The notes under the pieces: model-generated | Database searches by the model: none | The model's input: only the letters and a program-made list of their open reading frames with translations | What the model was told of the DNA's origin: nothing | Assembly (NCBI RefSeq): GCF_018320785.1 | Contig: NC_054870.1 | Span: 3,769,433 to 3,833,432, forward strand | Source: Cheilinus undulatus | Lineage: Eukaryota; Chordata; Actinopteri; Labriformes; Labridae | DNA length: 64,000 nucleotides | Reading direction: 5' to 3' | Made by a program: the position numbers and the translations under genes | Shown: positions 8,632-60,102 of the stretch, one piece after another | Layout: the number at the start of each line of letters is the position of its first letter | Numbering within the stretch: the first letter of the stretch is position 1

Positions 8632-9932
8632 CAGTGGTGTCAAACTCAAGGCCCAGGGGCCAAATCTGGCCTGTGGTATAGTTACACCCGGCCCACCAGA
8701 CCACATCATATTCTTATTACAGCTGGCCCACTGGTTTTAGGTCTGTGGATTTCCTCCAGTTTAAGAATGTAAACTTAACCATAATAATTCAAAATTTTAT
8801 CCTCTTGAATGAATGAATGAATATTAGAAATAGAAAAAGTTAAAATACTTCGATAAAAAGTCGGGAATGTGGGAAAAAACATTTATGTTTTCATTTCATA
8901 TTCTTAATTTTGCATCCCTCGGTTATGATGCAAAGTCATGGTTTTGACTTTTATTTCATGTTATCCTTTTCGATGCACAATTTAGACTTTTATCTCATAG
9001 TTTTTACCTTGTAGATGTATAATTTTAAATTTTTAGGTAATATTTTGACCTTTCAAACTCATGGTTTGGAATTTTTCTCACATTTTGACATTTATAACTC
9101 CTTATGTTGACTTTTTTCTCATAATTTTATCTTTTGAATGCATAATTTTTCAATTTTTAAGTAATATTTTGACCTTTAGAACTCATGATTTTGAACTTTT
9201 CTCACATTTGGACATTTTTAACACCTTATGTTGACTTTTATCTCATAATTTTGACCTTGTAGATTTATAATTTAAAATTTTTAAGTAATATTTTGATCTT
9301 TAAAACTCATGATTACGAACTTTTCCCACATTTTGACATTGTTAACTCCTTACGTTGACTTTTATCTCATAATTTTTACCTTGTAGATGTGTAATTCAAA
9401 ATTTTTAAGTAATATTTTGACTTTTAAAACTCATGGTTTGGAATTTTTCTTGCATTTTGACATTTTTAACTCCTTATGTTGACTTTTATTACATCATTTT
9501 ATCTCTAAGATGCATATTTTTAAATTTTAAATATTGTTTTGACCTTTAAAACTCAAAAATTAAATATTTTCCTAATGCTGACATTTTTAACCAAGGATTT
9601 TGAATTTTATCTCATATTTTGAAAGTTAAGAACCATGATTTCATTTTTCCATCTCATATATTTGCCTTTTTAAAATATTATTTTGACTTTAAATGCCATT
9701 TTTGGACCTTTGGAGCTGATACGCTTGAATTTTTACCTCAGATTTTGAGCCTTTTTCTTTATCATTTTGACTTTTTTCAATCACAGAATCCTTTATCATC
9801 AGTGCTCCGGTTTTCCCCCATAATTCATTGCTGGTGAAAATGAGGTTTATGGTTAGATGTGGATCCTGTTCAGCCCGTAGATTGGACCCAAATTCAGAGT
9901 TCAGCCCCTGCTGTGATTAACTTTGACCCCTG
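8632..9932 (+). mobile_element. hAT-like non-autonomous element, family A, copy 3, with perfect 8-bp duplication
   Basis: The element begins cagtggtgtcaaactcaagg and ends actttgacccctg. It is bounded by identical octamers ctgtaacc at 8624-8631 and 9933-9940, an 8-bp target duplication as expected for hAT transposition. The interior holds about four tandem copies of a ~123-bp unit between about 9049 and 9540. There is no transposase, so movement would have relied on an enzyme supplied in trans. Confidence 0.8.
9049..9540 (+). repeat. Tandem array, about four units of ~123 bp, inside the hAT-like element
   Basis: Units begin near 9049, 9172, 9295 and 9418, each with actcatg.tt, cacattttgacat, cttatgttgactttt and tttttaagtaatatttt in the same order. 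Units differ by scattered substitutions, so the array is not recent. Related AT-rich phrases occur in the copies at 430-1334 and 52712-53480. Confidence 0.75.
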
Positions 9933-21440: not shown

Positions 21441-21485
21441 AAACTTTTTTCCCCTATGACGCAGAGGTGGGCGTGGCTTACATGA

Positions 21486-21497
21486 TTTCGCGCGAAA
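21486..21497. promoter_or_regulatory. Perfect palindromic E2F site upstream of CDT1
   Basis: TTTCGCGCGAAA is a full palindromic match to the E2F consensus and lies 143 bases upstream of the CDT1 start codon. A gggcgtggc GC-box-like motif is just upstream (about 21470). CDT1 is a known E2F target in vertebrates, so this is probably the site that gives G1/S expression. Binding itself is inferred. Confidence 0.75.
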
Positions 21498-21640
21498 GTT
21501 CGTTTCTTCTTCCTGTGAAACGTGAGCGTTTCCGGTTATCTATTGTTGACGGCTACTATTTAACTCGGAGGGCTGCTGCTGCTGATGTAGGTTCGTCAAA
21601 ACTTTCTGATCGGTGTCGGATAACCCCTCGCAGCTGCAGC

Positions 21641-24600
21641 ATGTCTCAGGCCCGGGTCACGGATTTCTTCTCCCAGAGGAAGAAGGGCATCTCCGGTCCT
21701 GTGAAGCCGTCCAAGCAGCGGAGCAGCGCGGTCCTGCAGCGTGGATCTTCACGGCTTAGCACAAGGTCCGTATCCTCCAAAAACAATGACTACTCGCTCT
21801 GCTCGTCCTCCGTTCATGAAGAGTTCGTTCGAGTTATCGACGAGGCCGTGGGAATAAACGAGGGAGAGTGTGCTAGCATTAGCACCGGGAAGAACTCCCT
21901 CTCCAGTCCCAGGACACCAAAGCGGACCTCGGCCGACTGTGAGTTCGACCTCGGGTCTGCCGTGTTTTCAGCCACTGCCGACCACAGCACAGCCAAGAAA
22001 CGAAGACAAGGAGAGGCTGCCAGAGACCCCAGACCCAACCTTCAGGACAAAACAACGACGAAGAGAGCCAGGAAGAAACTGATCCTGCCCCAGGACACCC
22101 CAGAGGTACCCACCACCCCCTACCCCTCTGCTATAACTGAATTTAGTTAGAAAGGCTCATTTTAACCCGTGATCTAACGCAAAGGCTGGTCGTCCTGGTT
22201 ATCATATGTTGTTTGCATGTCTAGGCTGTAGTCCAGTCCCTGCCCAGGAAGGTAACCGATCTGCCTTCAGCTCCTCCAGTCCTTGAATCCGGTCAGAACC
22301 ATGTTGACCCCAAAACCAGCAGCTCTCCCCTGCAGGATGAGGCCACCAAGACCAGTGGAGGAAAGACCAGCACGGTAAGACCCTGTCTGGGCACAGGAGA
22401 AGTCTGTAGTCAGGGAGTAGAAATCATTAGGAAGGCTAGGATTTGTGATGCTTTGATTGACCTATAAAGCAGTGTTAAAAAGCCTAAAGGACACGAGGAG
22501 CCAATTGTTTCTTTAGCAAAAAGGACAAACTTGACCTCATAAAGCTAAAGATATTTAGAAGAAAGTCTGACCAAGCATTGTCCTTTAAATAGTTGGCCAA
22601 TTCCACAAACTCCTAAACTCAAATCAGAGATTCTGGGCGCCGTGGCATCTAACCAGAAATGACAACTTCACGGTTCTGTAGTGCTGGATATGTTTCAGTA
22701 GAGATTTTCATTTACCAGAATCATGAAAGCAAAAATAACTGAGATTAGGCTGCATTAATACTGCACCACAAGACTCAACAGGCATGCTTATTCTTTTAAT
22801 TTATTACTTTGACTATTGCCAATTAGTAAATACTCTTGTTTTTTACTTCTTTAGATTAGGGTTGGGCAATTCATCGCAAATTAGATTAAATCAAATTATG
22901 GCCTGCTGCAATTTTCAAATCGCAGAAGATGCAATATTTCTTTAACCTGAAGTTTGTACCAAAATACCAGTTTAGAACTTTTTTGCAGCAAAGATGTTAT
23001 GTAATACATATCATTTTAGTGCCATATTTTTAGAATAGTGTACACATTTTTTTCATTTTTGTATGTTTTTCTTATTTAATAGGAGAATTATATAAAGATA
23101 ACCATTCCCCTTTAATACAACAGTTCATATCAAATTTGTAGAATTTATGACAATTTGTTATTTTTTTAACTGTCCAGCCCTAGTTTAATCTAATATTGTG
23201 CTGGTTATAGTTTAGAATGAATTCTTGCCTATTTTTGTTGTAAAATGCATAAAATGAAGAACTTAAGAAATAATTGCATATTAAATAGCAATCGCATTGA
23301 GTAAATAAATATTTTTTTACAATTATTCTCCCAAATCATTCAGCCCTTGTTTGGTTTCTTGCATGTTTTTGCAGAAGGCTAAAATTTGTCAGAATATTAA
23401 ATCGCCAGTGGTGTAAATTTGATGCATGCATGCAGTGCAAAGGTTGTGACATGAATAACAAATTCTGTTTTAATAATCTCACTGTCCACCAGTTGTTAGT
23501 ATAGTTGTTGCCTTTGTCCAGCAATCCTAGTGGTTTGAGTTTGCATAGAACTTTTCTTGCTGACCTTGCACGTAAACATATTGCCAGTGATTTAAAAAAT
23601 ACTGAAATGAGAGACTCGATAAAATTGAAGCTCTGAATAAGTGTTTAGTTTATGGGAACCCATTTAGAAGAACAAAGATTTGGTTTTGCCATCTATCTTT
23701 GTTACTTTTGTGTCACAACTCTAGCCGGCAGTCCATATGTCTTGATTCCCCCCTGTGGGTCAGTCCCATTTCCAACTCTTAGCCCTTTTCTTAGACGTTA
23801 CCCTTGGTTTTGCGTGTTAAGGGTGAAGGGGTGCCCCACTTCTCTTTTGAAACTAGGGTTAAGGGCTGCATAGCCCTTGAACAGAAATTTTCAGGACCAT
23901 CCTTGAAACCAAGGGGAATGAAATTTCTTACCATGCACTGCGTTCACTTACAAAATGGTACCATGAACTATGATGGAAGTGCCTAAATGTAAATATCTTT
24001 GGCATTTGTAAATGAATATAGAAAATAGAACAGATGTGTTCTCTCATATATATTCAATCTTTAGCTTTTAGGAATGGGAGTTTGTTATTTTTGGTATGTA
24101 CCTGTGTAAGCGAGGGCTATTAACTGTATAAATAATGGAGAAGATCAACACAGTTATCCATAGTGTGAATGAGATGGCCAAAGCTTTGTCACATCTGATG
24201 ACGCACCATTTATCAGCAATTAAGCATTGGCTCATTTCTTAAGGGAAGGTTTTCACTCCCTCCTGTCACCACTCTGTTTGAGGGGGAAGGGTCTCGGGGT
24301 AGAATTTGGCCCTAAGTCTAAAAATGTGTTAATGGACTGTTTTGATCATGAGGCAGTTAAGAAGAAAGATGCCAGTATGGTTGCAATGAAGTGACTTTAG
24401 ACGGATCACATTTTGATATTGATTAAGAGTTGTCTGTTGGCATTCTGCAAGACAACAGCCCAAAATGATGCCTCTCTGATTTGTTCACTTATGTTTATGT
24501 CCAGTTCTGAGTAGGTACTTGGCCGGTTAGCAAAAAGGGAGGATATTGTGCTTTTTATCCAAATTAAGATTGGATCTACATTTGGTGCTGTTTTTTGGGT

Positions 24601-27600: not shown

Positions 27601-30600
27601 AAAAAATCTCTTGTTTAGTTGTTATAAATTCCTCTTGGCCATCATTTCTCTCTGGCTGCAGGAGCTGATGTGTGCTGCTTTCTTTAACTTTGCAGGCGGT
27701 TTGAGGAGAGCCACGTGGGTCAGATAAAGACGGTGTTTCCTGAGGCGTACACGTTAAGACAGGAGAAGAACATCCCAAACTTCAACAACAGCGTAAAGAA
27801 GGGCAGTTACCAGCTCACTGTGGAGCCAGTCCTTCCTTCAGGTCAGAAGACATTCATTCTTTGGTTTTAATATTTGGTGTGTTTGATATCCATTACACAT
27901 ATGTGCACTTTCCACTTCTGATCAATAAAATGTTCTCCCAATTGACCCATTGTTAAGCCCCACCTTCCTTTGTTACTGCGACTGTTAAGTCTCCAGTCTT
28001 AGATTGCTCTTGCAGACATCCCATGCACAACCTTTAGCTGTACTGAAGTCACAAAATCAACCAATCAGAGAGCCAGCAAAGGCTCATTTGGTTTTATGCA
28101 AGCTGGGGTCTAATGTATGCAGCCTTCAATCTTTAAAATATTTTTCCATCCATGTGTGTTCTGTACAGACAACAATGAAGCTCGCCCTATCCTGTCAGCC
28201 TCTAACCTCCTCAACAGACGGCACATCTTCCACCAGAACCTGGTCTCCATTGTTAAACAGCATCATAAGGTTAGCAGCTGTTCCAGATTTGCTTTGTATT
28301 ATGCTGTCAGTGTCTGATGGAGAGATTCTAGTTTCCTTAACGGTTTCTCTGTCTGCAGGTCTTCCTGTCTTCTTTGGTCCCCCCCGTGTCTGTTCCAGAA
28401 GACAAACTCACTCGCTGGCATCCTCGCTTTAATGTGGACACGGTGCCAGCGGTCCAAAGCAGCTCGCTGCCTCAGCCGCCTCACACGGAGAAGCTGGCCA
28501 CAGCTCAGGAGGTGCTTGACAAGGCCCGCTCTCTGATTACACCAAAGGTACTAACCCTGCATCCATGACGTGCTGGAATCATCTCAAAAGTCACAGCAAA
28601 TATCCATGAGGAGGATATCAGGAATAAAAAAAAAAAAAAAAGAGTTGTCTGCAGTGAGTGACTTCCTGTCTTTTCTCTCTTGTCAGATGGAGAAGGCTCT
28701 GGTTTCACTGGCTCTGAAAACACCAGATAAAGCTCCAGAGAGTAAAGAACCAACATCTCCACAGAACCCAACAGCTGCCCCTTCCGCTCAGCTTCCAACA
28801 GCCCTGAAAGGGGTTTCCCAGTCCCTGCTGGAAAGGGTAGGCACACCAGTAGCTGGTAAAAGAGGTGTTGGATTTTGTATGTGTGAAGACCATTGTTTGA
28901 TTAGGGTTTTTTTTTTTTTTTTTTTTGGTGACTCGTGTTTTAGATCAGAGCAAAGGAGGCCCAGAAGCTTCAGGCTGCCATGACACGAAACTCTGTCCAA
29001 GAGGAGCGCCTGCTGATGATGTCCAGGCTCCCTGAGCTGGCCAGGATCCTTCGAAATGTTTTTGTGTCAGAAAAGAAGCCAGCCCTAATTATGGAAGTAG
29101 CCTGTAACAGGATGGTGGCCAGCTACAGATCTGCTCTCAGCACAGGTTAGTTTATTCAGGTTACACCAGTTTACGGCAATTTTGACATCCGTTTTATGTA
29201 TTGAGTTTTCTGCTTTTATTCTTCAAGAGCCTCTAAACTGCAGTGAAACAAGTACAGTGCTGTGAAAGTGTTTGCCACTTCCTGATTTTTTTTTTGCATA
29301 ATGTAACATCTGAATGTTTCAGATCATCAAACAAATTTTATTTCTAGATAAAGATAACCTAAGCCATCAAAACTTACCTGGTCCTGTGTCAAAAAGTAAC
29401 CACCCCTGCTCGTGAAGTCATCAATTTACTGATATTCACCACATTTTTTTGAAACTCAATTTCACTAGCCAAGCAAATCCCTTAAATAAAAGCTGTTTGA
29501 CAAAGTGAAGTGAACTACAAATCTCAAAAAGCAACACATCACGGTGCCATCTAAAGAAATCCAAGAGAACATAAGAAACAAAGTAATTGACATCAGTCGT
29601 GAAAGTGTTGCAAACCGCAGTGTGAGCCATTATCTACAAACGGAGAAAATTTGGATAGCGGTGAACCTTCCCAGGAGTGGCAGGCCTGGCAAAATAACTC
29701 CCAAGAGCGCATGGATGACTCATCCAGGAGGTCCCAAGAGAACCCAGAACAGCATCTAAAGAACTGCAGACCTCACTGGCCTCAGTTAAGGTCAGAGTTC
29801 ATGACTCAACAGTAGGAAAGACAGTAGGAAGAGCCAAACCACTGCTGACCTAAAAGAACACAAAGGCTCGTCTCACATTTGACTAGAAACATTCTGATGA
29901 TCCCAAAGACTTTAGGGAAAATACTCTGTGGACTGACGAGACAGAAGTTGAACTTTCTGGAAGGTGTGCGGCCCGTTACATCTGGAGTAAAAATAACACA
30001 GCATTTGATAAAAAGAACATCATGCCAACAGTCAGACATGGTGGTGGCAGTGTGATGGTCTGGGGCTGCTTCAGGACCTGGACCACTTGCTGTGATTGAT
30101 GAAACCATGAATCCTGCTGTCTACCAGAAAATCCTGAAGGAGGCCTTCAGTTCATGATGGGACATGGATCCCAAACACACCAACAAGTCCACGGTGGAGG
30201 TTTTGGAGTGGCCTAGTCAAAGTCTTGACTTAAATCCAATTGAGATGCTGTGGCATGATCTTAAACAGGCCGTTCATGCTGGAAACTCTTCTATGTGGCT
30301 GAATTAAAACAATTCTACTGGAAAGCAGGACAAAATTCCTCCCCAGTGATGTGAAAAACCCATTGCTAGATATCGAAAACATATGCTTGCAGCTGTTGCC
30401 ACCAAGGTTGGAATGATCAGTTACTAGGTTCGGGGGGAAGGACATTTTCACATAGGGCCGGTAATGTTTGGATTAATTTATCAATCATTTAAAAAACATA
30501 TTTTTATCTCCTCTGGTTATCTATGATTTGATTTTAAACAATTACGTGTGACAAATTTGCAAAAAGATCAGGATGGAGGAAAAAATCTTTCCACAGCTCT

Positions 30601-38300: not shown

Positions 38301-41300
38301 CCCTCTCAGGAAATGGATGTGGCTCTCCTGATCCTCCTCTCAGCTGCGAGCTAGGAGGATCAGGAGAAGAGTGTGGAACTTTCTTACAAGCAGATAGGGC
38401 CAAGTGAACCTGGGGGAGGGACTAACTCCCCACATGACATCATGAGGGGAAAATCTGAGAACGGCTTGTTTTAGCACACATTTTCTGAAAGGTGGTGAAG
38501 GGGAGGGGTGCTGGTACTTGAGGGGATTGTGGACAGGCCAGGGGCAGATAACTTATTCAAAACATGTAAGACTACGACTAAAAAATGAGCCACAAACAGC
38601 CACAAAAGTGCTGCATACAGCAGTTGTGCCAAGCTCTGTGGTATTAAGCCCTCGTATCATTCTGTGTCAGTTTTTACTGCAGACTCCTTTCACTTCTTGG
38701 GCATCGTCATCAACCAGGACACCAAACTGAGGTCCAGTTGATTTCCTAACAAAGAGAGTGCTTGTCCAATGTGGCATTAAGTCTGCTCTCCAAAAATAAT
38801 ATTATAAAATGTACAGTACACAACTGCCCTTTGTATGATGAGATGACTGCTACTGAGATATTACAACTAAAGAAATAAAAACTTAAGGAGAAACTAACAG
38901 ATTGATGATATTTCATGCAAAATGTCAGCCTGCTAATGTGATCTGATACCAAAAAGCATGAAGTACTAACAGCTGCATCATGGTTTTATTCTTTATCTTA
39001 AAATGCATCATATGTAACAACAAGCCTATAAAAGACACTTTTAGCACTCTCTTAAGACTGCTACCTAAAGGCTCATGAATGAAAGGTCTGTGGTTTTACA
39101 TTTTAAGTTCTTTCCTTTGGTTTTCTTACCTACGATCAGATCAACATTCTGGTAATTCCGCCTCACCTGCTCTTCAAACAGATCAATGACTGCTGTCAGA
39201 GCGGCTGGATCCTTCAGGATGGGACAGATATCTCTGCAGGACACACAGAAACATGACTTAAGAATATACTGTCTTCATACTTACTTGATCAGCATTTTCT
39301 TTGGATATATGTCAACAATCTACAATTAATACCTTGGAGTTTTCTCACATTATACTTCACTGAGGCCAGAATGGAAAAGACATCTGTATTCTGAACATAC
39401 ACTATATTGCCAAAAGTATTCACTCACCCATCCAAATAATTGAAATCAGGTGTTCCAATCACTTCCATGGCCACAGGTGTATAAAATCAACACCTAGGCA
39501 TGCAGACTGTTTCTACAAACATTTGCGAAAGAATGGCTCGCTCTCAGGAGCTCAGTGAATTCCAGCGTGGTACTGTGATAGGATGCTACCTGTGCAACAA
39601 GTCCAGTGGTGAAATTTCCTCGCTCCTAAATATTCCACAGTCAACTGTCAGTGGTATTATAACAGTGGAAGCGATTTGGAACAACAGCAACTCCGCCACA
39701 AAGTGGTCGGCCACGTAAAATGATGGAGTAGGGTCAGCGGATGCTGAGGCGCATAGTGCGCAGAGGTCACCAACTTTCTGCAGATTCAATGGCTACAGAC
39801 CTCCAAACTATATGTGGCCTTCAGATTAGCTCAAGAACAGTGCGTAGAGAGCTTCAAGGAATGGGTTTCCATGGCCAAGCAGCTGCATCCAAGCCATACA
39901 TCACCAAGTGGAATGCAAACCATCGGATGCAGTGGTGTAAAGCACGCCACCACTGGACTCTAGAGCAGTGGAGACACGTTCTCTGGAATGATAAATCGCG
40001 CTTCTCCATCTGGCAATTCGATGGACGAGTCTGGGTTTGGTGGTTACCAGGAGAACAGTACTTGTCTGACTGCATTGTGCCAAGTGTAAAGTTTGGTGAA
40101 GGGGGGATTATGGTGTGGGCTTGTTTTTCAGGAGCTGGGCTTGGCCCCTTAGTTCCAGTCAAAGGAACTCTGAATGCTTCAGCATACCAAGACATTTTGG
40201 ACAATTCCATGCTCCCAACTTTGTGGGAACAGTTTGGGGATGGCCCCTTCCTGTTCCAACATGACTGTGCACCAGTGCACAAAACAAGGTCCACAAAGAC
40301 ATGGATGAGAGTTTGGAGAAGATGAACTTGACTGGCCTGCACAGAGTCCTGACCTCAACCCCATAGCACACCTTTGGGATGAATTAGAGCGGAGACTGAG
40401 AGCCAGGCCTTCTTGTCCAACATCATTGTGTGACCTCACAAATGCGCTTCTGGAAGAATGGTCAAAAATTCCCATAAACACACTTCTAAACCTTGTGGAA
40501 AGCCTTCCCAGAAAAGTTCAAGCTGTTATAGCTGCAAAGGGTGGACCGACCTCATACTAAACCCTATGGATTAAGAATGGGATGTCACTAAAGTTCATAT
40601 AGTCAAGGCAGGTGAGCCAATACTTTTGGCAATATAGTGTATGATAGCCTTGCTGTAGGGTCATGTCCCATATACTGAGGCTATAGTCCTCCAAGAAGGT
40701 GCTCCAGATTCAAATCCAGCCTAGAACCCCTTTTCTGCATGTCATTTTTCACTCATTCCCTTTCTTACTCTGACCTAAAGATCTAAAAGAAAAAAAAACG
40801 GTAAAACCCCCTAAATCTAATCTTGAAAAAAAGGGTCAGAAAAACACTGACCAACAGGTCTTATATTCATACATTTTTAATCCTATATTCTGTGTTAAGT
40901 TTATTTCGCTCACAGGGGCCACACTACTTCTACCTGAACTTTGGAACCATATTCATGAGTGTAATAAATGAAGCCCTCTGGTCACTAGTTTCTCTCACCT
41001 TAGGTTATAACTGACTGCAACCACCCCTGACTTACAGTTAGTAAGCAAACATAACAGGTACAAACATTTCTAATTATTTGCCAAGAACAAATAGGTGAAG
41101 GGTGAACAAGGGGAGCGACAACAAAATCTATAATCCAAGAATTCTGCTAACTTTCACATTTGGAAGATTGTTCCTTCAGTCTTAAAGTCTTAATATACGT
41201 GTTATCTTGGGGATTTGTGTTTTCACAGTTATAAAAAATCTACACTGTGCTCATTTATTTTAAAGACGATTTCTTCCGTTTGACTTATTTTACACAAGCC

Positions 41301-50300: not shown

Positions 50301-53300
50301 CTTAACTCCTCAGACAATTCTGGGCTCTTCTTTCTCTTCTCCATGCTTGGTGTGACACACACACAGGCGCACAACACAAAGGTTGTGTCAACTTTTAGAC
50401 ATTCTAACTGGCTTCAGGTGTGATTTTTTGAGTTTTGTGTAAAATTATGTCAATTTTGGCTTTTCCTTTGTCCGTGACTGTATTTCTTATTATTTTTGAA
50501 TAAAGCTCGGTCACAATACAACTCCTCAAGCTTCTGTTGATTCTGTTGCCCGCTGGTGCAGAATTGTGTCTCCATAGAATGACAACAAAATCACGTTCAG
50601 TGTGATCTGGTCCTTCAGACCCAGTTGAATTCCAAAAGATCAGATATGAATCTGATTTACTCCCACATATGAAAGATTCAATTTACTTGTGCTGTTTACA
50701 CTGTCAGAAAAAAAAGTTAGATATGAGCAAAAATCAGATCTGAGTGACTTTTAACTGCAGTGTGAATGTGGCTTTAGACGGTGCCCCACTGGCCTTTTTA
50801 CCTTGAAAATCCCAGTGTTCTGCACTCTGTCCATACAGAGTTATTCACTCACAGCGGAGGCTGTCATGCATCGTGCAGACTCCTCAGGATCTAACGTGCA
50901 GACACAATCACACTCTGGATAAATGGAACAAATTTTACGATGAATTTGGACTGAAGGTCTGCCATTATTATTCCTGTCCCTGCAGGCACTGATGTACCAG
51001 GATCCAGAGCGCTGGGGCATCACACTGCAGACCTATGTCCAACTCACCATGCTGGATAGACATCTGTCAATGATAGTAAGTACACTGCTGGCTTAAATCA
51101 TCACTTTGAGTTGATGCAAAATCATAAAGACTAAGTCTACCTGGAGTTCTGTTAAACATGCTGGAGGCTGTGGAATGGTGTTGGTGAAATATGTCAGAAA
51201 TTAACATGCAGTATAAACCTAAAGTTTCCTGTGTGTTCCAGTCTGCTCCTGTCAGAATGATAGAGAGGTCCATTTTCAGTGCCAAATACATCTTTGTGGA
51301 GAATCTCTTCAGAAGGTATTAATGGCTGTAGATTCCTGCCTGAGCCTAAAGCTCTTTGCACACTGAGTCTGAGTTAAAATGTTGAACGGGAAATCAGATC
51401 TTATGTTGTGCTAAACATATTTGCACACTGACGCCAGAACTTTCATCTGTCATTTCTTTTTTTTTATTTTGGCAGTGTTCTCTTTTTTTAGATTTTTACC
51501 ACTGGAAACCCCACCAGAATCACACAAACTCAGTGTGCAAATACCTCACCTCTCATAGTAATGATGGATTTGTTTACCATGACAGTGCACTGACATAATT
51601 GTTTTCTTTTTTGATCAGTGGGAAAATGCCAGAGGTGGACTATGCAGTCCTCAGCGAGTGGTTTGATTGGATATCGACCAACATTTCCCTCCCTGTTGAT
51701 CTAATAGGTGAGAAGATAAATAAGAAACTCATTCAGTTAAGATTAACCTCCTGAGACTTGAGCCCTTTGGGATGCATTTCTAGTTTCTCCCACTTATTTG
51801 GGACGAGTAGGGCCTGATAGGTTTAAAAGCTCAGCCTTGTCTTCGAACATAAATTAATTTTAGCAATTTAGCAACACAAATTCAAAAGTCCAAAATTCAA
51901 ATATTTCCCAAATGTTTCAGTGAAACTTTGTCATTAAGTTTAAACATTCAAATACCCACAATTTAAATGCATGTATAAAATCCATTTAAATTCTTAAAAT
52001 AAAAAAAAAGATCCCCAAAATCTCAAAGCAAACCAAAACCACATTCCCAAATCGTGCTATTAAAATGATGGAAAATTTCTCCAAATCTCCAAACAAATTC
52101 CCATGAATTTCCCCCAAAATCAAGACATTTCAAAAGACATCCTCGTCTCCCAACTGCAGTCAAATTCCCCAAATCAACAAATATACTTCCTTGAAAATCC
52201 CTAAAAATCTCAAAGCAAATTCCTCCCAAAAAACTTCGATAAAATTATCAAAAATTGCAAATACATTTCCCAAATTTGAATGAAAATGCCTAAAAAATGT
52301 CCAAAAATCACCAAAATATTGGAAAAATTCCCATGAAAGTAAAAAAAAATCCACAGCTAAGGGACACAAATATTTCCCCAAATTTGCATGAAAATACTTG
52401 AAAATTTCCAACATATATTCCCCAAAATATCCACGGAAATTCCTGAAAATTTTAATTGCAAATTCATCCAGTATTTTACGTACATTACTTAAACTTTAAT
52501 GGAAATTCCAGACAATTATTTCAAATATTATAATAGTTGAAATTATTACTGCATTGTAGGAAAGCCAGAATGTAATGTCCTCATATGTGCGTGAGGAAGG
52601 TTAAAGCAATGATAAAAGAATGGTTATGTCTGACATACAACCAGAGAAACATTGAAAAAAAACATTAAAACAAACAATCACAAGATGTTGAATGGTGACA
52701 GATCGTTCAAGCAGAGATGTCAAACTCGAGGCCAAATCTGCCTGGTGGTACAGTTAAACCTGGCCCACATGATCATATCAGATTTTTATTAGAACTGGCC
52801 CACAGGTATTAGGTCTGCCGATTTCCTCCAGGTGAAAAGTGTGAATTTAACCTTAATGATTAAAAATAGCCTGAAGTCGTACAAAACTGATAAGTAAAAG
52901 TAGTTGGATAAAAAGTCAGTATTGTGAGAAAATAAATTAATTTGTGTTTCATTTCATATTTTCGATTTTGAATCTCCCAGTTATGACTTAAACTTATGAT
53001 TTTGACTTTTAATATATTTGCCTTTTAATTTCATAATTTTAAAGGTTATCTCACGTTTTGATCATTTCAACTCCTAACTTTTTACTTTAAATCCCATATT
53101 TTGACTTTTAAAACTCACAATTTAAAATCTAAATCTTTTTTTTTTACCTTTTTATCTCATATTCTAATTTGACCTTAAAAAGTGGTGATTTTGAATTTCT
53201 CATTTTTGATCATTTCAACTCCCAACTTTGACTCTCAATCCCATATTTTTACCTTTTAAATTCACAATTTAAGATTTAAACTTATTCTTTGACCATTTAA

Positions 53301-56300
53301 ATAAATAATTTTGAATTGTATCTCATATTTTGACGTTTAAGAATCACAATTTAATATCTAAACTCATATTTTGACTTTTTTAACTCACAATTTTAAATTT
53401 TATTTCATATTTTGACCTTTAAAACTCACAATTTCAGCTTTCTGTCATATATATTTGCCTTTTAAAAACAATATTTTGACAGTAGGAAAATGAAAGAAAA
53501 AGCAAAGTATCCTAGAAAATCTTGTGCTATCCTGAAAATCTCAACTTCATATTCTCTTAATGTTTATATTGGAGGCCTCCAAAACAGAGGACATTATCAT
53601 GTTAAAGGTTGCTTTTAAACAGTGACTGTAGTTTGATGGTTTAAGTAGCAGTCTTTATCAAGCTTTGCACTTGCAGCAGATTTTGCACCTTCAAAATTAA
53701 AATTTTAAAAATCTAGCGCTGATGCTTGAGATGACTTACGAAAACATTTGTTTGTTGGAATTTTTACTATTACTATTATTATTGTTATTATTGTGAGTGA
53801 GGCTGGTGCAAGACTGGCTCATAGCCTTGTTTTTATTTTTTGAGAAATTGAGAAAACACTATATCATACATGCCAAAACTCTCATTGGAATGTGTATATC
53901 TCAATAAAACTAAAGGCTTTATCTGCACATATATTTAAATTATGCTTTGGTCATCTTCTATAAGCATTTAGCCATCTTAAATCAGACTTTGACAGAATGG
54001 GGCATATTGGTGTATGCACGATTCTTATCATCACTGAAAATGTCCTGGGAAAGATCTGGAAAGTGATCTCCAGAAAGAGTAGGATTCCTGAGTAAATTCC
54101 ACTCTGTAAGCCAATGCCAGTGTCATTAATCTGTCCCTCAGCAGTACCTGAAGTCCATCTATTTTATTCAGGCACAGGGCCATGATTAAGTCCCCCTGTC
54201 TTGAATGAATTTGGTGTTTGAGGCTCTAACTGCTCGTTTCTGTACTGACTTTTCCTGTGGATCTAGTTTACCTGCAGACGTCTCCTCAGACCTGCCATGA
54301 GAGGTTAAAGCAGAGATGCAGAGAGGAGGAGAAAGTCATTCCAATGGTGAGGGTGCAAACTCAAACACACCACACAGATCAAACTATCAGCTCAAAGGGG
54401 CCTGAATGGATCTGTTTATGTTCTCACATCCATCAGGAGTATCTGGAGTCCATCCACCAGCTGTATGAGGACTGGCTCATCAATCGCACCTCCTCCCCTC
54501 TGCCTGCTCCTGTTTTGGTGAGTAGCTGCTTCAGGTCATGCTCAGGTGCATCTCAAACAATAAGAAGATCTAAAGAAGTTAATTTTTCTGTTATTCTTTT
54601 CAAAAAGTAAAACTTGTTTTAATCTTAATGATGTGATCACTCAGCAGCAGACCGTCAGTGGTCTAAGGTTGTTTTTGTGATGGTTTGGAGTGTCATGTGA
54701 TCTGCTGCTGTTGGTCCACTGGTCTTTATCAAGTCCAGAGTCAACACTGTCAGCAGCCTACCAGGAGACTGTAGACCACTCCATGCTTCTATCTGCAGAC
54801 AGGCGTTATTGAGATGTTGATTGCCTGAGAAGAGGATCAGGAGAGGAGGGTGGAACTTTTTAATCCAAGTGGGAATAAAAAGGCGGGGCTAACTCCCCGC
54901 ATGACATCATGAGGGGAAATCTGAGAATGGCTTGTTTCAGCACACATTTTCTGAAAGGTGGAGAAAGAGGAGGGAGAGAATGGATTTTTCTGATTCTTGG
55001 GGCAATTGTAGACAGACCAGGGGCACATATTTTTTGCTAGAAAAGCCTGAAAAAGTTCATTTTGCATAAAATGTGACCTTTAACTCCAATTTAATCACCA
55101 GAAATCAATCAAGAAAAACTCATCTTAATATAACCTGAGAAGTCCCTAAAAATTGAATAATCCACTACACACACACACACACACACACAAAAAAAGCAAT
55201 GCATTGTAAAAATCCAAGTCCAATGGAATCCGACTCCCCGGCCCTGGGAATCTTTCTGAGTCTAGCCCTAAAAGTTCTCCTACGGCTCTAGTTCTCACTG
55301 GTTTCAGAGGTAAAACCAGAACAAAAAGAGAAATGTTCTGTTTCCACTCTCTTTAGAAAACAGTTTACCTGCAGATTTCTGCTACTTTTCTCCAGCAAAA
55401 TTCCCCCAAACACCTCACTCTCTCCCCTTGTTCTCTATAGTCATGTTTCCATCAGGGGGTCCGGTTTGATTCAGTTCGGTTGGTATGGTTTGGAACGCTA
55501 AACCCTAAAACAGTTTGCGTTTCCACAGACACACGGGCCCTCACTGGGCGGGCTGTAAAGGCTGACTGTGAAGTCGCAGTCAGCGTGAGTCTGCTGGTCG
55601 AGCCATAGAGTTATAGAAAGGATGAGTGACAGAAATCAGTAGGGAATAAGCACTAAACAGCTTTATTTCAGCTGAAAGTGCTTTTTTAAAAATTAACTAC
55701 ATCTTAATCATGTTAACTGCTGTCAGTACAGCTCTTCAGCTGATGGAATATGTGTACAGAGACATTTGGAGTCATAACTGTATGTTAATATGTGAATATA
55801 TCTAGTCTAGAACAGTTTATACAATGAAATATAAAAGTTTAGAGCTGTACTGTGAGAATTCGCCAGATTGAAAATAAAGTAAAAGTTCAGCTGGTGTTAA
55901 AATCAAACTAGATTAAGTCAGAAATCCTGGGTGCACTTGATCTCGTTTTAAAATAGGCTGCAGGCCGAAGTTTTACAAACATGTCCAACAATCACAGAGC
56001 GATGTTTTCAGAAGTCACCTGAAGTAGATGAATAAGTAGTTACAGTACATAGAATCAACTGACCTAAGGCTTCGTATTCACAAAACTTAAGTATCAAGTA
56101 AGTTTCACATCCGTTGCGGATAAACCAGGCTGATGTGAGCCTTCAGGCTCTGCTTTGTGTTCTTAAAATCAGGTCCAGATAAACATCAGGACACTTGATT
56201 TGTGGCCAGATTTCAATATACACAGACCAGGAAACAGTTTGGATCTCTGTCGAGTCTAAGTATCCCAGATTAATGCAGACATTACTCGGGTTTTCTCCCG

Positions 56301-57182: not shown

Positions 57183-58446
57183 CACACGCATACATGTAAT
57201 AGGTTTATTAACCTCTTTATCTTTAATATAGCTGCTCTGTTAAGTTACACGGTTTACACGGTTACAAGGTTTTACACAGGTTATCTCTTCATGTTGGGTT
57301 TGCGATTACTTCACTGTTGCTTGTTACTGCAGGGTTCATGTGCCGTAGGAATACGAGCTTCTTAAAGGAAAAAGAAAACTTAAGATGGCATCAGATGGAA
57401 CTTCATTCTAAAAATATTTATTCTAAGTTCTCTTTCTATCGGGTGAAGAGGAGTCTTTGAAACAAATCTTATTTAAGACCAAGTAAAATATTTTACCTGC
57501 TTAAACCATCATTATAAGCTCTGAGGTTTAGCTGATTCATTCCACGTTGTATGTAGTTTATGTTCCAGCTGTTAGTTACGGCTTTTATTTATTTTGCCAT
57601 TTTTTCACACTGAGTTTCAACTTTTGCAACACTTACAAACAGTATGTGAAGATGCTCTATAATTGAACACCATGTCATAAGTTTCTCTGTAAGTCTTATG
57701 AATGAAGATTTATTCTGTTCTATGTTTTCCTACATAAATAAGTAAATTTTTTAATCCCAACATGTTGTCAGGCATTTTTTTCCTTTAAATGAAATTGTCT
57801 CTAGACACAAGCAAACTATCAGAACGAATTATATGGAAAACAGGCAGGCTTAGGTTTCTACCTCCACTGATGTTAGTGTTAACGATGTAGCACCATGACA
57901 AAAGGAGATCAGAAGATTATCAAAGCATTCATATAAAAGAATCAGAAGGCCTAAAGTTCTGGGCATTCTCCACACTTCCTCTATTTTATGGCTTGAGTCT
58001 TAGTCCCTTCCACTCACGGAGAGACTGGGGGGAATCGAAGCGGAGGTCTGAAGACCAAAAACTGATGTTTTACAGTCCATGAGACGTCCTTTCCTCAGAC
58101 AAGTACTATAGTACTACATGAAAATGATATTTTCCCATAACTTTATTCCCCACTGCTCCACCTTGTGGAACAACAGAACAATTACAATTAACAAGAAAAC
58201 TATTTAGAAAAAACTGGTATGAAAAAGACATTGTTTTTGTTGCTGATCTAATGGACGAAAACGGTCAATTCCTAGAGTTCAACACATTCAAGGAGAAATA
58301 CAAGCTTCAATGTTCATAAAGAGAATACAACAGAATATGTAGAGCTGAGGTACAGTTGATCTTACCAGCTTTAAAAGCTGACCAAACACCAATAGGGGAT
58401 AGGAAATGCAATGATAAAACTACTGGAAGAATCCTGAGAGGAATTA
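57183..58446. other. TK2 3' region and intergenic sequence
   Basis: It probably includes the TK2 3' untranslated region. I could not choose a polyadenylation site; the hexamer variants near 57730 are candidates. No further gene was seen. Confidence 0.35.
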
Positions 58447-60061
58447 CAGTTGAAACCAGAAGTTTACATACACTATATAAAAAGGCACATAAACTTTTTT
58501 TTTCTCACTGTCTAACATTAAATCAGATTAAACTTTTCCTGTTTTTGGTCAGTTAGGATTACCAAAATTATTTAAATTTGCTAAATGCCAGAATAATGAG
58601 AGAGATCATTTTTTAGACAATTTTTTAGTATTTTCTTGAGAGTCAGAAGTTTACATACATTTCATTAGTATTTGGTAGCATTGCCTTTAAACTGTATGAC
58701 TTGGGTCAAACATTTTGGATATGCTTCCACAAGCTTCTCACAATAGTTTACAGGAATTTTGGCCCATTCCTCCTGGCAGAACTGGTGTAACTGAGCCAAG
58801 TTTGTAGGCCGCCTTGCTCGCGCATGCCTTTTCAGCTCTGCCCATAAATTTTCAATGGGATTGAGATCAGGGCTTTGTGATGGCCACTCCAAAACATTGA
58901 CTTTGTTATCCTTAAGCCACTTTGTAACCAGTTTGGCAGTATGCTTAGGGTCATTGTCCATTTGGAAAACTCATTTGCGCTCAAGCTTTAACTTCCTGTC
59001 TGATGTCTTGAGATGTTGCTTCAGTATTTCCACATAATGTTCTTTCCTCCTGATGCCATCTATTTTGTGAAGTGCACCAGTCCCTCCTGCAGCAAAACAA
59101 CCCCACAAAATGATGCTGCCAGCCCCATGTTTCACAGTTGGGATGTTGTTCTCAGGCTTGCAAGCTTCCCACTTTTTTCTCCAAATGTAACGATGGTCAT
59201 TATGGCCAAAAAGTTCAATTTTAGTTTCGTCAGACCGCAGAACATGTCTCCAAAAATTAAGGTCTTTGTCCCTGTGTGCATTTGCAAACTGTAATCTGGC
59301 TTTTTTATGTTTCTTTTGGAGTAATGGCTTCTTCCTGGGAGAGTGGCCTTTCAGCCCATGTGGGTACAGGACTCGTTTGACTGTTGATAATGACACACTC
59401 TTACCAGCTTCAGCCAGCATCTTCACAAGGGCTTTTGCTTTTGTTCTTGGGTTGAGATGCACTTTTCGGACCAAAGCATGTTCATCTCTGGGACACAGAA
59501 CCCGTCTCCTTCCTGAGCGGTATGATGGCTGGACATTCCCATGGTGTTTATACTTGCATGTAATTGTTTGAACAGATGAACGTGGCACCTTCAGGCATCT
59601 GGAAATTGCACCCAAGGATGAACCAGACTTGTGCAATTCCACAATTCTCTTCCTGATATCTTGGCTGATTTCTTTTGATTTTCCCATGATGTTACACAAA
59701 GAAGCAGTGTGTTTCAGGTGTGCCTTAAAATACATCCACAGATGTGCCTCTAATTAACTCAAATGTTGTCAATAAACCTATCAGAGGCTTCCAAAGACAT
59801 GACATCATCATCTGGGCTTTCCCAAATTGTTTAAAGGCATAGTAATCTTAGTGTATGTAAACTTCTGACTTTAAAGAACGCAATAAAAATTGTCTAAAAA
59901 AATCCTTTTCTCATTATTCTAGCATTTAGCAAATAGAAATAATTTTGGTAATCCTAACTAACCAAAAACAGGAAAATTTTAATCTGATTTAATGTTAGAC
60001 GGTGAGAAAAAAAGTTTATGTGCCTTTTTATAGAGTGTATGTAAACTTCTGGTTTCAACTG
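58447..60061 (-). mobile_element. Sleeping Beauty-like Tc1 transposon with IR/DR ends
   Basis: The 1615-base element is bounded by cagttgaaaccagaagttta and its inverted copy, with TA on each side. Inner direct repeats (gagtcagaagtttacataca, 58638-58657; inverted at 59850-59872) lie about 190 bases inside each end, giving the two-repeats-per-end layout of the Sleeping Beauty group. The outer ends are identical over at least 25 bases, so the insertion is relatively recent. Confidence 0.93.
58665..59687 (-). pseudogene. Sleeping Beauty-like Tc1 transposase with one in-frame stop
   Basis: Translated on the minus strand, the protein starts MGKSKEISQDIRKRIVELH at 59687-59685 and runs to GNATKY and a stop at 58665. 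It is full length for the family, about 340 residues. It has the paired-type DNA-binding region, the glycine-rich box (GAGSIILWGCFAAGGTGALH) and the DDE triad in [18 protein letters not shown] and IENLWAELK. One TGA at 58973-58971 follows KLKLERK, where the family normally has a tryptophan codon, and splits the frame before the second catalytic residue. No frameshift is visible. Some other positions (for example VLRSDETK, where relatives have tryptophan before SDETK) also differ. As written it should make no active enzyme. Confidence 0.92.
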
Positions 60062-60102
60062 TATATTCCATGACTTTAAATGTGAGCCAAAAATCGGGTT
60101 GA

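Follow-up and report, generated by a model that had tools for sequence, protein, structure and literature searches.

Elements of the Sleeping Beauty (SB) clade have been reported from 108 species, 107 of them ray-finned fish, in the survey of Jia et al. 2022 (PMC9777934). Intact copies, with at least 300 aa, terminal inverted repeats (TIRs) and target-site duplications (TSDs), are recorded there in 26 genomes, with more than 100 in Coregonus clupeaformis; because such copies were found in 26 genomes, it is already established that fish SB families can hold open frames (PMC9777934). According to the same source, the clade combines a 340-aa DD34E transposase with TA duplications, a length of ~1.6 kb and TIRs of ~210 bp, inserts in AT repeats and keeps open copies in some fish, all traits that recur at the locus described here. 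Within-clade identity exceeds 80%, a figure given for coding sequence (CDS), and SB-like elements share 68% identity with SB in the DDE domain and 55% in the DBD (PMC9777934). ZB, a native Tc1 element of zebrafish reported to be highly active (PMC7913693), has the structural organization and DD34E motif of SB at 52-54% CDS identity to the SB groups (PMC9777934); unlike the highly active ZB, the family described here is known from sequence alone. In Atlantic salmon, DTSsa2, the most recently active Tc1 family there, underwent a burst dated to ~1.8 to 0.9% difference (de Boer et al. 2007, PMC2198921).

The window, by which we mean the whole 64,000-nucleotide stretch of Cheilinus undulatus DNA that was analysed, contains an element with long inverted repeats at 58447-60061, with TA read from the sequence directly outside each end (58445..58446 and 60062..60063). 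The left TIR, on the transposase 3′ side (58447..58659, plus strand), has the IR/DR layout, with an outer direct repeat at 58457-58472 and an inner one at 58644-58659. The right TIR, on the 5′ side (59850..60061, plus strand; arm from 59852), carries its inner and outer direct repeats in reverse orientation at 59850-59874 and 60034-60058, and these two are 88% alike. An outer and an inner CAGAAGTTTACATACA-like direct repeat are present in both arms, giving each long TIR the two direct repeats, putative transposase-binding sites, that characterize the SB clade; the arms themselves (58445-58659 and 59852-60063) share 90.3% identity over 217 aligned columns. The left arm ends at 58659 and the stop codon of the transposase frame starts from 58665, leaving a five-base gap (58660-58664) and no overlap, whereas the 3′ TIR of SB-clade elements is described as partly overlapping the ORF, in a general remark rather than as a clade criterion (PMC9777934). 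The TA duplication expected of Tc1/mariner and DD34E/Tc1 elements flanks the window copy and 35 of 37 family copies with flanks; the other two, L024 and L032, have one end without TA, the same end where the match stops short. Among the sites read, insertion was in AT repeats.

The transposase frame occupies 58665..59687 on the minus strand (340 codons plus stop), and translates as 341 codons that open with ATG and close with TAA, interrupted once by an internal stop, a TGA at codon 239 (58971..58973, minus strand). Pfam HTH_SB (PF25787), the SB-type DNA-binding model, was matched at 93.2 bits against a cut-off of 43, together with HTH_Tnp_Tc3_2 and DDE_3; PAX and two general HTH models matched more weakly. 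At E 0.001, the structure matches of the frame were four Sleeping Beauty chains (5cr4, 2m8e, 6urs and 5unk). With the stop written as X, residues 112-340 of the product aligned without gaps to the SB100X catalytic domain (PDB 5cr4; 186 of 229 residues identical, 81%), and residues 1-53 aligned equally gaplessly to the SB N-terminal chain 2m8e (44 of 53, 83%). The catalytic residues D153, D244 and E279 (D, D, 34 residues, E) are present, carry the same numbers in SB (PMC4820933) and are kept in 44 of the 46 genomic copies introduced below, L008 and L023 having each lost one. Upstream of the codon 239 stop lie HTH_SB (residues 1-53) and HTH_Tnp_Tc3_2 (residues 71-140); beyond it lie D244 and E279, two of the three catalytic residues. 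Translation and the gapless SB alignment bear out what the sequence-only reading had described, one full-length frame without a frameshift and with its sole stop at 58973-58971.

The element is therefore identified by its IR/DR ends, 340-aa DD34E transposase and TA target as a Sleeping Beauty-group Tc1 transposon. Its 81% (catalytic) and 83% (N-terminal) identity to SB exceeds the 68% and 55% given for SB-like elements (PMC9777934), and these values, which are pairwise identities and not positions on a tree, suggest that it would sit with the SB branch rather than with SB-like. Relatives of the 238 pre-stop residues were absent from IMG/VR viral contigs, where none of 8 pattern matches was confirmed, and from the phage records searched; the window itself gave no match to Rfam at the gathering threshold and no tRNA.

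We conclude with high confidence that the window element is a non-functional, full-length SB-group Tc1 copy that stems from a burst followed by neutral decay, with the TGA as part of that decay. The family would have spread in this fish lineage through a burst of cut-and-paste transposition, a mechanism suggested by family membership, and each copy, the window copy included, would then have decayed neutrally, largely by CpG loss. The TGA at codon 239 would be a minority nonsense mutation of this decay, cutting the product before D244 and E279.

The genome searched comprises 1.173 Gb in 46 contigs, with the window on contig C6. With the whole element as query, the search returned 1,654 first-look candidates. 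Scoring covered the best 40, and the 39 of these other than the window copy itself had complete or almost complete length and 96-97% identity. A second search, with copy L007 as query, gave 2,200 candidates, and the best 40 scored had 97-98% identity. All distinct places in both best-40 lists form our set of 46 copies (L001-L047, with L038 left out as a duplicate). These copies were picked best-first, their divergence and intactness are not those of the whole family, and a younger lineage more than ~3% from both queries (the window copy and L007) could escape these searches. A protein search with the 238 pre-stop residues was scored for the best 150 of 53,896 candidates. That neither best-first sample (46 copies; best 150 of 53,896) describes the whole family counts against our reading to that extent.

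In the set, 45 of 46 copies have no indel in the frame. Thirteen have no internal stop, and one of these has a one-base deletion; open frames thus number 12, including one in which the usual stop at the end is missing. Stop-free copies make up 28% of the 46, against 36% expected under a Poisson law, with a mean of 1.02 stops per copy. Most often a copy has a single stop (22 copies), and the window copy, which had been presented as special on this account, proves typical. Among the best 150 protein matches, 90 have no stop inside the match and 31 an uninterrupted open stretch of the full 362 codons (340 codons plus 22 in-frame upstream codons; the 260 of the window copy are likewise 238 plus 22). 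Because both samples were taken best-first, intact copies are probably less common in the family at large than in either.

At codon 239 the SB chain has W, and among the 46 copies the codon is TGG in 43, TGA in two (the window copy and L017) and TCA in one, which confirms that the stop falls at an expected tryptophan codon. The genome search for TGG at this codon that the sequence-only reading had proposed gave 416 TGG and 13 TGA (3%) in exact 27-base contexts, with 0 for both in reversed-pattern controls. Because 416 contexts have TGG and 13 TGA, the state of the family is TGG, and the stop is a decay mutation found in a minority of contexts. The 13 of 429 nonetheless exceed what non-CpG transitions show on average (0.277 changes per site across the 46 copies, ~0.6% per copy), a point against independent decay of every copy; since 3% is above ~0.6%, it is possible that some TGA copies share the stop by descent and form a small TGA-carrying sublineage.

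Mean K2P divergence of the 46 copies from the column majority was 1.52%, or 1.20% with 141 CpG columns masked, and pairwise divergence spanned 1.63-3.94% (1.03-3.40% with CpG masked). Terminal branches, which measured 0.6-1.9%, made up 93% of the length of a FastTree tree (94% without CpG columns), and four clades had support of at least 0.90. The tree is star-like, but with its few supported clades it is not a perfect star, a departure that counts against our reading in its simplest form. Private non-CpG transitions were missense at 64 of 578 possible sites and synonymous at 40 of 316, and private non-CpG transversions at 84 of 1,438 and 10 of 281; compared as counts without a significance test, private missense and synonymous rates are similar. 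The pattern fits a burst followed by neutral decay. Salmon Tc1-like families are described with a comparable history of short burst, quiescence and possible open frames in recent families, at similar depth (PMC2198921).

The salmon bursts follow a master-copy pattern in that account (PMC2198921), whereas the shared variants found here are reticulate. Non-CpG site changes present in at least 4 of the 46 copies numbered 25, against 0.3 expected under a Poisson model; 13 were transitions (0.29 expected) and 12 transversions (0.02 expected). At 24 sites in the 46 copies, all four combinations occurred in 42-62% of site pairs, depending on distance class, and mean r2 was 0.031 compared with 0.022 (s.d. 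0.002) after shuffling, so that a small amount of linkage is left. Such low linkage misfits a single master copy and is a further point against burst and decay in their plainest form. A recombining source pool and mutation hot spots both fit the reticulate variants; hot spots are also possible because linkage shows no significant dependence on distance, the recombination test (linkage and compatibility against distance) being negative across the 46 copies in windows of 50-200 bases (p 0.13-0.77). We put forward only tentatively, at well below even chances, the idea that the burst was fed by a pool of source copies with shuffled sequences, whose daughters would be mosaics with shared variants near linkage equilibrium. 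Ectopic repair following excision may have done the shuffling, or else meiotic recombination between alleles at source loci. Among the literature matches listed, nothing was relevant to mosaic Tc1 copies; the mosaic pattern, if true, would have a bearing on the way cut-and-paste elements multiply and escape decay.

Stops in the 46 copies are spread over 20 codons, and 27 of the 47 counted are CGA-to-TGA changes (CpG loss), at codons 290 (13), 74 (7), 109 (5) and 105 (2). Some stop-bearing copies might have multiplied in trans as non-autonomous sublineages, for which the codon-290 stop is the main candidate: it is frequent, occurring in 13 of 46 copies, and 29 of the best 150 protein matches have an open stretch 311 codons long that ends where it falls. 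On the tree without CpG columns, however, this stop is unclustered overall, needing 10 changes for its 13 carriers against a shuffled mean of 11.5 (363 of 2,000 shuffles as low). For the stops at codons 74 and 109 the number of changes equals the number of carriers (7 and 5, respectively), and this complete lack of clustering speaks against a trans-spread sublineage for either codon. In association with the 24 non-CpG variants, the lowest uncorrected p was 0.014 for codon 290, 0.089 for codon 74 and 0.38 for codon 109. Because the changes on the non-CpG tree are about as many as the carriers, most occurrences of the stops at 290, 74 and 109, all CGA to TGA and hence CpG losses, go back to recurrent CpG loss. 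In one clade (L004, L005, L016 and L018; support 0.90 on the non-CpG tree) all four copies have the codon-290 stop; they may be a small lineage that was multiplied in trans once its frame had been lost, and the 13 genome-wide TGA contexts at codon 239 could include another small shared lineage. Weighing both sides, we judge multiplication of stop-bearing sublineages in trans to be unlikely.

The possibility raised at the outset, that the family was active recently, holds on an evolutionary scale, with copies 1.5% from the majority and open frames among them, but does not extend to ongoing activity. Within the samples, copies did not all share the stop, showed no multiple frameshifts and were not highly divergent, in keeping with that suggestion. 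A family still active, in which transposase still comes from intact copies and the window copy was a recent, barely damaged insertion, would agree with the 12 open frames in 46 copies, the 31 full 362-codon stretches among the best 150 protein matches and the 45 frames without an indel. However, there is no near-identical pair among the 46 copies, the closest differing by 1.63% (1.03% with CpG masked), and L007, the copy nearest the majority, has a best other match of 98% (best 40 of 2,200); for these reasons current transposition is unsupported. The terminal branches of 0.6-1.9%, the similar frequency of private missense and synonymous changes and the rank of the window copy as the most diverged of the 46 at all sites (2.01% against the mean of 1.52%) also speak against present activity, which we consider improbable. 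The burst appears to be over.

The window copy remains 1.57% from the majority with CpG columns masked. Apart from the stop, 16 of its residues depart from the family majority, six of them private and the rest also found in other copies; the differing residues include 151, beside D153, as well as 173 and 189. The SB clamp loop comprises residues 159-190 and bends on three glycines, 188-190 (PMC4820933); the changes at 173 and 189 fall in this loop, and 189 is one of the bending glycines. Together, the 16 changes would be expected to disable the protein, and the copy is presumably inactive. To call it nearly intact and one change from function was too generous, given these 16 further differences and the highest divergence in the set. 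The observation was correct and the element is ordinary: knowledge of SB elements is unchanged by this copy. What the family adds is a further fish genome with a burst of the SB group, in which copies number in the hundreds and some frames are naturally open. It can help to date the transposon load of the lineage and offers a natural archive of CpG-driven decay.

Truncated copies could in principle act as repressors, since the predicted 238-residue product retains HTH_SB and HTH_Tnp_Tc3_2 and might occupy the ends or poison active transposase; stops scattered over 20 codons, most of them CpG losses (27 of 47), and the absence of any sign of selection on the frame make this very improbable. Decoding of the TGA as an amino acid, by recoding or readthrough in a functional copy, would suit a stop on a W codon with the remainder of the frame kept, but is in practice refuted by the count of 416 TGG to 13 TGA among 429 exact contexts, by TAG and TAA stops at other codons in sister copies and by the other changes of the window copy at residue 151 beside D153 and at clamp-loop residues 173 and 189.

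Other repeats lie in the window and elsewhere in the genome. Two Tc1 relics, at 29701-30424 (two overlapping matching frames, the first with 3 stops over 29701-30072) and 39594-40557 (two matching frames, 26% and 52% identical to the window transposase), agree with the statement that the Tc1 copies at 29255 and 39400 are more decayed; because the pieces are only 26-52% identical to the window transposase, the relics are probably other families. The left flank of the element (58200-58318) contains in frame what we take to be a resemblance to the C-terminal end of a LINE reverse transcriptase, and an older retroelement may surround or adjoin the element. On another contig, four matches to a 146-base piece of the element lie ~6.6 kb apart (G000:C4:2110990-2130944), a spacing suggestive of a tandem segmental duplication that includes the element. 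Contig C25 has three transposase matches within ~27 kb (G000:C25:65349-92525) and a fourth at 481647. A 227-aa frame at 21467-22150 has no Pfam match at E 0.001; its start presumably resembles replication factor CDT1. The window also holds two minisatellite arrays, at 8985-9555 (124-base unit, 4.6 copies) and 53238-53466 (82-base unit, 2.5-2.8 copies), whose consensus units have TTTTGACCTTTAAAA in common.
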